Shown here piece after piece: positions 8,711 through 62,596 of a stretch of DNA of 64,000 nt. The notes beneath the pieces are model-generated. The model saw nothing but the letters and a program-made list of their open reading frames with translations, ran no database searches and was not told the DNA's origin. This stretch comes from Thermomicrobiales bacterium (GTDB lineage: Bacteria > Chloroflexota > Chloroflexia > Thermomicrobiales > UBA6265), in the NCBI GenBank assembly GCA_023957115.1, contig JAMLHN010000005.1, positions 62,001-126,000 of the forward strand, written 5' to 3'. The first letter of the stretch is position 1; every line of letters begins with the position of its first letter. A program made the position numbers and the translations under genes.

Positions 8711-8800
8711 GGGATCTGGGAGTTGGGCGGTCGGATCTGGGAGTTGGAGAGATCGCGTTCGCTGGCGTTCCAAATTCCTAAATCCCAACTCCTAACTCCC
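8711..8800. repeat. Inverted quasi-repeat at converging gene ends
   Basis: GGGATCTGGGAGTTGGG (8711-8727) and CGGATCTGGGAGTTGG (8732-8747) face CCTAAATCCCAACTCCTAAC (from 8777) in inverse orientation. The right block supplies the last codons and stop of the minus-strand flavoprotein gene. The left block follows the plus-strand dehydratase stop. Confidence 0.55.
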
Positions 8801-39801: not shown

Positions 39802-39809
39802 TCGTGATG

Positions 39810-39840
39810 GTCCGGGGGCCGGAGTCCTGAGTCCGGAGAA
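39810..39840. repeat. Quasi-periodic gene-end repeat
   Basis: Overlapping words GGTCCGGGGGCCGGAGTCCT and GAGTCCGGAGAA lie eight bases after the sucB stop. The 11-mer CCTGAGTCCGG is shared with the inverted-repeat arm at 55751. Confidence 0.5.
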
Positions 39841-54947: not shown

Positions 54948-55748
54948 GTGAAACTCGAGGATCGTGTTGCGTTCGTAACCGGTGGCGGCTCAGGTATCGG
55001 CCGGGCAATCTGTGAGCTCTTTGCGAGCGAGGGCGCTCTGGTGGTGGCCGCCGATCTGATACCCGAGCGTGCGGTCGAAACCGCCGAGCGGATCGTCTCC
55101 GCCGGCGGGACGGCGCTTGGCCTGGAGATCGATGTTGCCGATGCCGGCAAGGTCGAGCGTGCCATCGATGCCGCCATCGCGGAATACGGCCGCATCGACA
55201 TACTCGTCAACAACGCCGGGCTTTCGGTCGGCGACCGGATCACCGATTTAGATGAGGCGAGGTGGGATCTCAATATCGACGTGGTCTTGAATGGCGTCTA
55301 CATCTGCTCGCGACTCGTGATTCCGGGGATGGCGGAGCGCCAGTCCGGTGTCATTCTCAATATCGGTTCGGTCAATGGGTTGCTGGCGATTGGAGAATCG
55401 GCCTATTCGGCAGCCAAGGCCGGGATGGTCAATCTGACCCAGAATATGGCCATTCACTACGGCGACGACGGTATCCGGGTCAACCTGATCGCTCCTGGCA
55501 CGATCCGCACGCCCATCTGGGACGAGCGCCTGAAAGCCGAGCCTGGCGCATTCGAGCAGCTCGCTCCCTGGTATCCCCTTGGCCGCATCGGCACCCCGGA
55601 CGACATTGCCAAAGCCGCCCTCTTCCTCTGTTCCGACGACGCCTCCTGGATCACCGGCGTCGCCCTTCCGGTCGACGGCGGCCTCACCGCCGGAAACTAC
55701 CGCTTCAACAAAGATCTCCAGGGCGTGCGGGAGAAGCCCGCGACGTGA
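54948..55748 (+). CDS. SDR-family NAD(P)-dependent oxidoreductase
   Basis: The product has 266 residues from the GTG at 54948 (GGGGAGG just upstream). It has the Rossmann motif AFVTGGGSGIGRAICELFAS, the acidic DL after strand two (favouring NAD), LVNNAGLS, the catalytic Ser in ILNIGSVNGLLAI, and Tyr/Lys in SAYSAAKAGMVNLTQNM. It ends ASWITGVALPVDGGLTAGNY. The enzyme oxidises or reduces an alcohol/ketone pair, probably a sugar or polyol taken up by the upstream transporter (inference). A four-helix-bundle cassette with an inverted-repeat arm begins three bases after its stop. Confidence 0.92.
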   Translation: MKLEDRVAFVTGGGSGIGRAICELFASEGALVVAADLIPERAVETAERIVSAGGTALGLEIDVADAGKVERAIDAAIAEYGRIDILVNNAGLSVGDRITDLDEARWDLNIDVVLNGVYICSRLVIPGMAERQSGVILNIGSVNGLLAIGESAYSAAKAGMVNLTQNMAIHYGDDGIRVNLIAPGTIRTPIWDERLKAEPGAFEQLAPWYPLGRIGTPDDIAKAALFLCSDDASWITGVALPVDGGLTAGNYRFNKDLQGVREKPAT

Positions 55749-55750
55749 GC

Positions 55751-56296
55751 CCTGAGTCCGGGGTCCGGAGGCCGGAGATAGAAATGCGAGAAGAAGCGGT
55801 GAGCTGGGCAGAAGAGTTTCTCGGAGACGTCGACGATATTCCCCGGCAGTTTCGAGTCGAGGAACCCCGCCAAGGCTATGTACCCGGTGGCCCCAGAGAC
55901 TTGATCGTGTGGAGAATGGCGATGGAGCTAACCAAGGCTGTGTATAGCAGTACCAAGTCTTGGCCGGCGGATGAACGGTACAGTCTGACGAGCCAAGTTC
56001 GTCGATCGGTCGTGTCGGTCCCCGCAAATATTGCGGAGGGCCATGGTCGAAGTGGAGACCGAGAGTTCTTGCATCATCTTTCGATTGCGAGTGGGTCGCT
56101 CAGAGAAGTCGAGACACTCCTCGAAGTTGCGCGTGATGCCGAGTATCTTCAAGATGTTCAATTCGGCGAGCTGATGGTGATGTGCGAACAGACCAGACGG
56201 CCATTGCGTGGGCTGATTGCGTATCTGAGGGGGAAGCAGTGAACGACCTCGGAAGCAACCCAACCTCTTCTCCGGCCTCCGGACCCAGGGCTCAGG
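55751..56296 (+). mobile_element. Putative cassette: four-helix-bundle gene flanked by 28-bp inverted repeats
   Basis: The left arm 55751-55778 and right arm 56269-56296 are inverse copies matching at 26 of 28 positions (left begins CCTGAGTCCGGGGTCCGGAG). Between them lies only the four-helix-bundle gene (55784-56242). The left arm starts right after the SDR stop, and the right arm lies inside the next gene. A transcript would fold the whole gene into a long stem. This matches how intervening sequences in 23S rRNA are organised (a four-helix-bundle gene within complementary ends), but no rRNA is here. Mobility is inference. Confidence 0.55.
55784..56242 (+). CDS. Four-helix-bundle protein (23S rRNA intervening-sequence/S23 family)
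   Basis: The ATG at 55784 has GGAG six bases upstream; the product has 152 residues. After a polar N-terminus of about 38 residues comes the family core: DLIVWRMAMELTKAVYSSTK, SLTSQVRRSVVSVPANIAEG, the GDREFLHHLSIASGSLREVE helix and a final helix. The family was first found in intervening sequences within 23S rRNA genes and is related to the Avd accessory protein of diversity-generating retroelements. Its biochemical role is not established; it forms pentamers and can bind nucleic acid in Avd. It is flanked by inverted repeats and overlaps the next gene's start. Confidence 0.85.
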   Translation: MREEAVSWAEEFLGDVDDIPRQFRVEEPRQGYVPGGPRDLIVWRMAMELTKAVYSSTKSWPADERYSLTSQVRRSVVSVPANIAEGHGRSGDREFLHHLSIASGSLREVETLLEVARDAEYLQDVQFGELMVMCEQTRRPLRGLIAYLRGKQ

Positions 56297-57522
56297 ACCC
56301 GCTTCCGGCGTACGCCGGCGCGGTCGTCATCGGCGCGGGGGCGTTTGGGCTCGGAACCGGATTTGCACTGGCGAAGAACGGGCTGAATGGAGTGCTGGTG
56401 CTCGATCAGTTCGAGCCGGGGACGCAGACGTCGGCGCGGGCGGCGGGGCTGTTCAAGAACATTCAGGCGAGTGCGACCAAGACCGAGCTGACCCGGCGTT
56501 CGATCGAGATCGTCACGCGGTTCGAGCAGGAGACCGGGGTTGCCGTGCCCTACGTGCAGCCGGGGAGTCTCTTCGTTGCCCGGACGCCCGGTCATGCCGC
56601 CATGATCGAGGCGGAGATCGAGGACTCAGTGGGATGGGGTGTGGCGGTCGAACGGCTCGATCGACAGGAGGCGCAACGACGCTGCCCCTACATCGACAGC
56701 CGCGATTTCGTCAGCGCCTATTTCATTCGCGACGATCTCTATATCGACGAACCCAAAGCGCTCCTGGTTGCTCTGATACAGGCGGGACTTCGGGTCGGAA
56801 TGCAAACCGTCGGACAGACAACCGTCACCGGGATCGACGTTCGCAACGGTGAGATACGTGGTGTCCAGACCAACCGGGGGTATATCGGCACCCCGGTGGT
56901 GGTCGATGCCGCCGGCGCGTGGTCCCGGATCGCTGGCGCCATGGCCGGTGTCGATGTCAAGATCGTGCCGATGCGACATCAGCTTGGCATCACCGCTTTG
57001 GTCGAAGGCATTCCGCCCGATTTGCCGATCGTGCGGATGACCGATGGCGCGGCCTATGTCCGCCCGGCCCGGGGTGGACTCATGTACGGCATCTTCGAAC
57101 CCAACCCGCTGCCGTTTGGACCCGTTCCGGGTGAAACGATGAGTCTCGATATGGTCCCAGTCGATCACAGTGTGCTGCGCGAGGCTCGTGACCGAATCGT
57201 TCCCTCGGTGCCCGAGCTTGCGCATGTGACCGATCAGGAGCAGCGCGCCGGATTGTTCACCATGACGGCGGACGGCAAGTTCATCGCCGGGCCAGTTCCC
57301 GGTGTTCACGGTTTCTGGGTCATCAGCGGGTGCAACGGCAGTGGATTCTCGATGTCCACCGGGCTGGGCGCCGCGATTGCCGAATGGATCGTGGGCGGCG
57401 CTCCGGAAATCGACCTTTCCCTGCTCGATCCGGCTCGTTTCCTCGACCTGGAGATTAGTGAGTCCGATCTGCTGGCCCAGTCGATCTGGCAATACGCCAA
57501 CTACTACACGCCACTCAGCTGA
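56239..57522 (+). CDS. FAD-dependent oxidoreductase, DAO family (second)
   Basis: The GTG at 56239 overlaps the four-helix-bundle stop (GTGA); no later start keeps the FAD motif intact. Residues 2-18 are encoded in part by the right inverted-repeat arm (TSSPASGPRAQDPLP). Then comes AVVIGAGAFGLGTGFALAKN with VLVLDQFEPG and the C-terminal SGCNGSGFSMSTGLGAAIAE typical of DAO/sarcosine-oxidase-like enzymes. It oxidises a C-N bond in amines or amino acids; the substrate is unknown. The original N-terminus seems to have been replaced by sequence from the inserted cassette. A short hairpin follows its stop. Confidence 0.85.
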   Translation: MNDLGSNPTSSPASGPRAQDPLPAYAGAVVIGAGAFGLGTGFALAKNGLNGVLVLDQFEPGTQTSARAAGLFKNIQASATKTELTRRSIEIVTRFEQETGVAVPYVQPGSLFVARTPGHAAMIEAEIEDSVGWGVAVERLDRQEAQRRCPYIDSRDFVSAYFIRDDLYIDEPKALLVALIQAGLRVGMQTVGQTTVTGIDVRNGEIRGVQTNRGYIGTPVVVDAAGAWSRIAGAMAGVDVKIVPMRHQLGITALVEGIPPDLPIVRMTDGAAYVRPARGGLMYGIFEPNPLPFGPVPGETMSLDMVPVDHSVLREARDRIVPSVPELAHVTDQEQRAGLFTMTADGKFIAGPVPGVHGFWVISGCNGSGFSMSTGLGAAIAEWIVGGAPEIDLSLLDPARFLDLEISESDLLAQSIWQYANYYTPLS

Positions 57523-61684: not shown

Positions 61685-62503
61685 ATGGCCGACCGGCTTA
61701 CGTTTTGCACGAATAGTCATCACACCTACACGCTGGAGGAGTCGCTCGCTGCCGCGGCTGCTGCTGGGTACAAGAACATCGAGCTGACCTCGGTGCCGGG
61801 TTGGACCGAGCATGTCCGCCGCGATGCCACCGACGAAGAGCTCGCGCATGTGAAGGATCTGCTGAAGAAGTACGGGTTGACTGCGGTCAGCTTTGCCGGT
61901 CATTCGGATATGGCATCCGATACCGGGGTCGCCGAGTTTCGCAAGGCGCTCGATGTCGCGCACAAGCTCGGAATTGGCTACGTCACCACCAGTACTGGTG
62001 GTCATGACGCCTCATCGTCCGGCTCGCTCGACGAGCAACGAGAGGCCTTCCTGGCACGCATTCGCCCGCTCTGCGACGAAGCGGCTGAGAAGGGCATCAC
62101 CATTTGCCTGGAGACCCACGGCGGCCTGGTGGCCAATGGCGCCATCTCGGCCGAGCTTGTCAAGCTGATCGATAAGCCCAACATCGGCGTCAACTACGAT
62201 CCGGGAACGTGATCCACTACGGCGCGACCGATCCGGCAACGGATATCGAGGCCGCCGCGCCCTATCGTGAAGCACATGCATGCCAAAGACCAGATCGGTG
62301 GACCGGGTGTCTGGAACTTCCCGGCGGCTGGTACCGGAGAAGTCAACTTCGATGCCATCTTCGCCGCGCTGGACGAAGTCGGATTCGACGGCCCGGTCTC
62401 GGTCGAGATCGAGTTCACCGGCGAACCGTGGCCCCCGCTCGCCGAGGTCGAAGCCGCCGCAAAATCCGCCCACGACTTCCTGCGGAAGTTTGTGCCAGCG
62501 TAG
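61685..62503 (+). pseudogene. TIM-barrel sugar isomerase/epimerase (AP-endonuclease 2-like), two compensating frameshifts
   Basis: The first 175 residues are a xylose-isomerase-like barrel: DRLTFCTNSHHTYTLEESLA, then GYKNIELTSVPGW, VSFAGHSDMASDTGVAEFRK, VTTSTGGHDASS and ICLETHGGLVANG. At about 62207 the frame breaks: VNYDPGT-stop should read VNYDPGNVIHYGATDPATDI, found one frame over. Near 62267 it shifts back to give KHMHAKDQIGGPGVWNFPAA with GEVNFDAIFAAL, ending FLRKFVPA. Two opposite single-base changes 60 bp apart inside an otherwise well-kept gene look like sequencing indels or a damaged gene. The product would interconvert a keto sugar or sugar acid. Confidence 0.75.
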
Positions 62504-62515
62504 GCGACAATCGCG

Positions 62516-62596
62516 AGCAGTCAGCAGTCAGCAGTCAGCAGTCAGCAGTCAGCAGTCAGCAGTCAGCAGTCAGCAGTCAGCAGTCAGCAGTCAGCA
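62516..62596. repeat. Heptamer tandem repeat AGCAGTC, about 11.5 copies
   Basis: An unbroken run of the seven-base unit starts 12 bases after the upstream stop. The same words in inverse orientation lie at 63006-63028, beyond the next gene. There are no spacers, so it is not CRISPR. Confidence 0.9.

Follow-up and report, generated by a model that had tools for sequence, protein, structure and literature searches.

Why should a gene of the family known from 23S rRNA intervening sequences (IVS) sit between inverted repeats among protein genes, and what kind of element do the gene and its repeats make up? In the window, by which we mean the whole 64-kb stretch of DNA that was analysed, positions 55751-55778 and 56269-56296 are identical at 26/28 positions in inverse orientation. 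A preliminary description of this locus had noticed these arms and the single gene that they enclose, and both are borne out by our alignment and by the match of that gene to PF05635. The repeat finder extends each arm to 37 nt (31/37 = 84% identity, loop 490), and the start of the left arm overlaps the stop codon of the SDR gene at 55746-55748. What had been taken for a plain inverted repeat is indeed an inverse match, but it is not a unique stem, as the arms are tandem arrays of a degenerate heptamer (Table 1). The cassette does lie outside rRNA, as had been stated: no Rfam family is matched within the window, hence there is no rRNA there. The sugar-uptake operon in which it had been placed, on the other hand, is not established by the list of products, which comprises ABC permeases, SDR, the DAO oxidoreductase, an ABC ATPase, and an NMT1-like protein.

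A profile search assigns the enclosed ORF to PF05635 (E=1.1e-35) and TIGR02436 (117.7 bits), and we refer to it as the four-helix-bundle (4HB) gene. Among its solved homologues are 2gsc (XCC0516, E 1.2e-38) and also 2rld, and XCC0516 is a homopentamer according to the Coxiella paper (PMC4990558). The predicted start of the DAO gene overlaps the 4HB stop both in the genome of the window (G000) and in a relative (G004), so that the arm would be translated in frame, as a new DAO N-terminus.

Table 1. Coordinates in the window of the two elements, the neighbours of the focal one, and two solo arrays.
Feature	Position	Strand	Source
Gene-less solo array, GGAGTTG/GGATTTA word (the word of element L002 of the same genome)	8768..8799	-	
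Gene-less solo array, GGAGTCC/GAGTCCG word (the word of the focal element)	39809..39838	+	
SDR dehydrogenase gene, bounding the insertion site on the left	54948..55748	+	
Left arm, degenerate heptamer array GAGCCCT GAGTCCG GGGTCCG GAGGCCG GAGA	55742..55778	+	repeat finder
Focal 4HB gene (23S_rRNA_IVP / TIGR02436), 152 aa, N-terminal extension of ~38 aa	55784..56242	+	
FAD-dependent oxidoreductase (DAO) gene, predicted start GTGA overlapping the 4HB stop	56239..57522	+	
Right arm, heptamer word of the left arm inverted	56269..56305	-	repeat finder
Second element, left array (AGCAGTC)n	62516..62596	+	
Second 4HB gene, 125 aa	62633..63010	+	profile search
Second element, right inverse array, overlapping the 4HB stop codon	63006..63028	-	

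Is the repeat real, and is it a property of the family? For each locus, we aligned the 300 bp upstream of the gene to the reverse complement of the 300 bp downstream, and set the threshold at a score of at least 15. A total of 198 4HB loci were tested for arms, with 375 other genes of the genome of the window as controls. Matching inverse arms are present in 91% of the loci of Chloroflexota relatives (n=56), in 83% of those of other phyla (n=86), and in 82% of a third set, taken from Flavobacteriaceae and others (n=56), vs. 1.9% of the control genes; the focal locus has a score of about 24. An enrichment of inverse arms around this family is what the preliminary description had proposed to look for, and it is found. 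Arms also tend to match the arms of their own locus. The own downstream flank ranks first of 56 for 38/56 loci in the relatives, and first of 86 for 60/86 loci in the other phyla. The control genes and the cross-locus comparison together rule out a chance inverted repeat. Arms in direct orientation were also considered and rejected, their self scores in the relatives being those of the background (median 11.0). At two loci (L014 and L021), the 4HB element stands between convergent genes with homologous ends (ABC permease-like termini), and because of that homology the inverse similarity reaches far past the arrays.

The architecture is seen in Chloroflexota and in more than a dozen other phyla. 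In the relatives, the 4HB family is patchy (27/61 genomes, with 1-7 copies each); in Flavobacterium, it is present in 60/61 genomes with up to 16 copies each; and a profile scan of genome contigs gave 80 loci in many phyla, one archaeon among them. The genome of the window (a 4.26-Mb assembly, 91% complete) has four PF05635 genes, and 4/4 have inverted heptamer arms, with the words GAGTCCG, AGCAGTC, GGAGTTG, and AGGCAAT, one each. A second homologue in the window had been reported to have a like layout with another repeat word, and we confirm it, with (AGCAGTC)n on one side and its inverse on the other. The xylose-isomerase-like gene upstream of this second element (61685-62505) is broken into three frames (61685, 62209, 62210), that is, two frameshifts or assembly errors; in most relatives, the homologue has a single frame there. 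Copies on cyanobacterial plasmids, at nrdB-nrdA or cas6-cas4 junctions, likewise consist of a 4HB gene with inverted arrays. For the plasmids of Pseudanabaena (L169) and Nostoc (L166), the sites of the 4HB elements are in a type I-D CRISPR operon, with cas6 and cas4 on either side, and at nrdB-nrdA, where the orientation is antisense.

The arms have a regular unit. Of 119 arm-bearing elements, 89 are best described by a unit of 7 bp, 17 by one of 8 bp, and 2 by one of 9 bp, and 11 have none; after shuffling, 116/119 have no unit. When the 7-bp words are aligned by rotation, they take the form A/G-G-N5 (R-G-N5), with G at 92%, and on the upstream sense strand G is found far above C. The arms have a median length of 4.4 units (10th-90th percentile 3.5-6.3), and given such a variable number of units we do not claim a pentamer-times-7 arrangement. 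A few arrays are long and near-perfect or perfect (11-16 units), namely L147 13447-13533, L153 18632-18746, L159 19867-19979, and the left array of the second element in the window. Unlike the degenerate arms, these may be recent expansions, and they are candidates for length variation.

It had also been suggested to compare orthologous operons with and without the cassette, and both filled and empty sites exist for the two elements of the window. The focal site is empty in G019, where the stop of SDR directly overlaps the start of DAO (GCATGATGATC), and in G004 the same junction is filled by a 45%-identical 4HB element with the word AGTCCGA. The site of the second element, between the isomerase and a Gfo/Idh gene, is filled in G000 and G004, and has no 4HB element in eight relatives (G009, G010, G012, G017, G022, G024, G028, and G060). 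Three of the eight (G012, G022, and G024) have gene-less inverted arrays there, with other words. The junction in G017 (L344) has yet another palindromic repeat, GTAGGGGCGCATGGCATG ... CATGCCATGCGCCCCTAC, as if this junction received many kinds of small repeats. Where the gene upstream points the same way, left arms begin at its stop codon (median +2 nt). When an element has two close neighbours, it lies in sense within a co-directional pair in 68 cases, and antisense to both in 17. No clear target-site duplication emerged, with shared outer 5-mers in 13%, slightly over the 8% of the null, among relatives that are too diverged.

What changed the interpretation of this locus the most, with respect to the preliminary description, are the 7-bp periodicity and the dispersed gene-less copies, both of them absent from it. 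In 464 kb of the genome of the window there are 41 arrays of period 7, including those of the two elements, and at most 11 of any other period. Period 7 dominates outside the elements too; periods 6, 9, and 12 are the usual multiples of three. Several gene-less arrays are inverted pairs of 61-285 bp with no gene inside. The arms of gene-less pairs at unrelated sites share the irregular unit order GGAGTTG-GGATTTA-GGAGTTA, and this common order points to arms that were copied whole instead of arising by slippage in place. Four pairs in this genome (L152 3067-3292, L164 6358-6582, L164 17643-17927, and L165 3895-4085) also have inner motifs in common, GTGTTTGAA near the left arm and in some of them TTCGAACACG near the right arm; with a second heptamer word, GTCCTGAG / CAGGACC, they make up a composite miniature element family.

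Gene-less arrays go together with the 4HB gene. In draft genomes of Chloroflexota, we find 63 gene-less arrays in 932 kb of 4HB-bearing genomes vs. 1 in 490 kb of 4HB-free genomes. Phylogeny confounds this contrast in part, as every sampled genome of family f3 is without gene and arrays. The sole array in the 4HB-free genomes is a degenerate purine run. For family f1 alone, with the genome of the window left out, the counts are 14 in 302 kb with the gene vs. 1 in 124 kb without it, and within family f2 they are 6 in 122 kb vs. 0 in 134 kb. The words agree as well: for gene-less arrays, the best match among 94 genomes is to the 4HB arms of their own genome in 38/66 cases, and across phyla the arm of their own locus is the best of 67 in 40/86 cases, where not all arrays are independent, since several are pairs or share one locus.

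How do protein and word relate to each other? For elements at unrelated sites, protein identity correlates with word similarity (rho 0.258, permuted maximum 0.060), and the GC-matched correlation is 0.129 (permuted maximum 0.121 of 500). Joint vertical inheritance can explain this correlation, and binding is not needed for it. One particular site in 15 Flavobacterium species has an 8-bp unit that is CTRAG-N3 in some species and CARAG-N3 in others. The predominant type is the same in both arms for 14/15, and the 4HB proteins are 80% identical when they share a unit type and 65% identical when they do not (permutation p < 1/5000). The N3 positions vary freely and differ between the arms, and the fixed positions are kept. 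One element at this site (L285) is mixed, in that CTRAG units prevail in its left flank and CARAG units occupy the right, and it may be an intermediate in the change from one word to the other. The 4HB gene has a dN/dS of 0.04-0.08 in close pairs; such strong purifying selection indicates that the protein is in use, and it is in no family with known catalytic activity. A strong positive charge was considered as an Avd-like hint and rejected, the domain being near neutral (median +1, and -4 for the focal protein).

All this suggests a widespread and apparently undescribed mobile repeat system. We propose, with a probability of roughly two in three, that the locus belongs to a widespread class of small elements in which a 4HB gene is bounded by inverted RG-N5 arrays, similar to REPIN/RAYT with an unrelated protein, and in which we infer both binding and movement. 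What the data show is the architecture and its statistical reality, the locus-specific matched words, a word similarity that follows that of the proteins, the filled and empty sites, the dispersed gene-less copies, and the purifying selection. As for the mechanism, the 4HB protein probably forms a ring of several subunits, as its solved homologue does. The oligomer would recognise the RG units repeated at either end of the element, and the bound protein would bring the two ends together. The segment, as well as gene-less copies, could then be copied into new intergenic junctions by host enzymes, by analogy with RAYT and REP/REPIN. Old insertions would persist under selection, with the word drifting jointly in both arms. 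Against this reading, the strength of the purifying selection and the orthologous sites that are conserved (G000/G004, and Flavobacterium) also fit a domesticated, immobile module, and no movement was seen within a species.

Could the module be one that does not move? An immobile regulatory module, in which a TRAP-like 4HB ring would bind the array lying in the 5′ leader of its gene and arrays would originate by local slippage, accounts for an RG fixed at 7-nt intervals between free spacers, for the array being directly upstream of the start codon, and for the strong purifying selection. Yet a regulatory module of this kind does not predict a matching inverse array past the stop codon, nor empty sites, nor dispersed gene-less pairs, and the irregular unit order shared by unrelated sites is hard to get by slippage. 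We regard this explanation as unlikely.

Another possibility, which we consider very unlikely, is an RNA-processing unit as in the 23S rRNA IVS, where the arms would pair in the transcript and RNase III would excise the stem. The likeness to the 23S IVS is in the protein family (a PF05635/TIGR02436 ORF) and in the complementary ends that enclose a single small ORF. For Coxiella, the IVS is reported to have three GACAGAT heptamers before the S23 ORF and a 28-bp terminal stem, with excision by RNase III (PMC4990558), and it fits the plan of the elements seen here. The 68:17 sense bias also counts in favor of RNA processing. However, amongst the arm mismatches there is no excess of those tolerated by G-U pairing (182 vs. 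225 non-tolerated), and in Flavobacterium the variable positions of the units are unlike between the arms. The 17 elements antisense to both neighbours speak against it too, and the genome-wide gene-less copies are left unexplained. At the focal locus, the right arm lies within the predicted DAO frame, and cleavage would sever the DAO mRNA. Unlike the 23S IVS, the present elements are outside rRNA and in protein operons, they have word arrays at both ends and dispersed gene-less copies, and they bear no sign of selection for RNA pairing; simple 23S motif searches placed no 4HB locus inside rRNA. Of the undescribed protein-plus-stem mobile or RNA-processing unit that had been put forward, the gene with its inverted repeats is supported, and the stem and the RNA processing are not. 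Finally, the 4HB gene as a passenger on repeats mobilised by another enzyme, such as a RAYT/Y1 transposase, would agree with the three Y1_Tnp genes in G000 and with the REPIN-like look of the dispersal, but it is just as improbable, given that Y1_Tnp and 4HB presence are not associated (14/27 vs. 14/34 genomes, p=0.45), that Y1_Tnp is undetected in the 4HB-bearing and highly complete G005 (98%) and G041 (94%), that the Y1_Tnp locus checked has no arrays, and that the presence of arrays tracks the 4HB gene.

With respect to known systems, REPIN/RAYT also combine a few selected protein genes having inverse repeats with many intergenic gene-less inverted pairs (PMC3116915, PMC2817692), and dispersed gene-less inverted copies that match the gene-flanking repeats are found here. 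In contrast to RAYT, the protein of the present elements is a four-helix bundle with PF05635 only and no Y1/HUH domain, and the repeats are tandem arrays of 7/8-bp RG-N5 units, as opposed to single palindromes of 20-40 bp such as the REP with its GTAG-type tag. The preliminary description had related the family to the Avd protein of diversity-generating retroelements (DGR). A distant, marginal similarity does exist (NF033474, 18 bits), but it is far under the family cut-off of 80. With 0 matches to the reverse transcriptase PF00078 in G000 (91% complete), a reverse-transcriptase partner is rejected, and on both counts the element is not a DGR. Because each known kind that we considered differs from these elements in at least one tested defining feature, we set the element apart as a new kind. 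If a kind is defined by a protein gene with dispersed repeats, it could equally count as a variety of REPIN/RAYT.

Degenerate intergenic 7-bp arrays have been described in Xanthomonas (GGGAATC), Nostoc (GGGGAYT), and Beggiatoaceae (TAACTGA) (PMC4692102, PMC4679880), with some 70 convergent heptamer pairs per genome reported for Xanthomonas (PMC4692102). The searched passages describe these heptamers with no link to a 4HB gene (PMC4692102, PMC4679880), and the link is our proposal here. In the open-access literature searched, we found no paper linking 4HB/S23 genes to heptamer arrays. We give slightly better than even odds to a joint reading, namely, that this is a new cross-phylum class in which a protein with no known catalytic domain reads a short, evolvable DNA word and spreads gene-less copies, that the 23S IVS are a minority of its members, inserted in rRNA, and that the heptamers of Nostoc, Xanthomonas, and Beggiatoaceae are gene-less offspring.

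PF05635/TIGR02436 is a widespread family, and "rRNA intervening sequence protein" is all the function that it has been assigned. In several bacterial groups, heptamer arrays were so far reported as curiosities, with no source given. The link between the two provides the protein with a testable function, and a class of bacterial repeats with an origin. It also offers a model for how the recognition of a short repeat changes its word while both ends stay matched. If true, the link would recast the 23S rRNA IVS as just one insertion site within a larger family.
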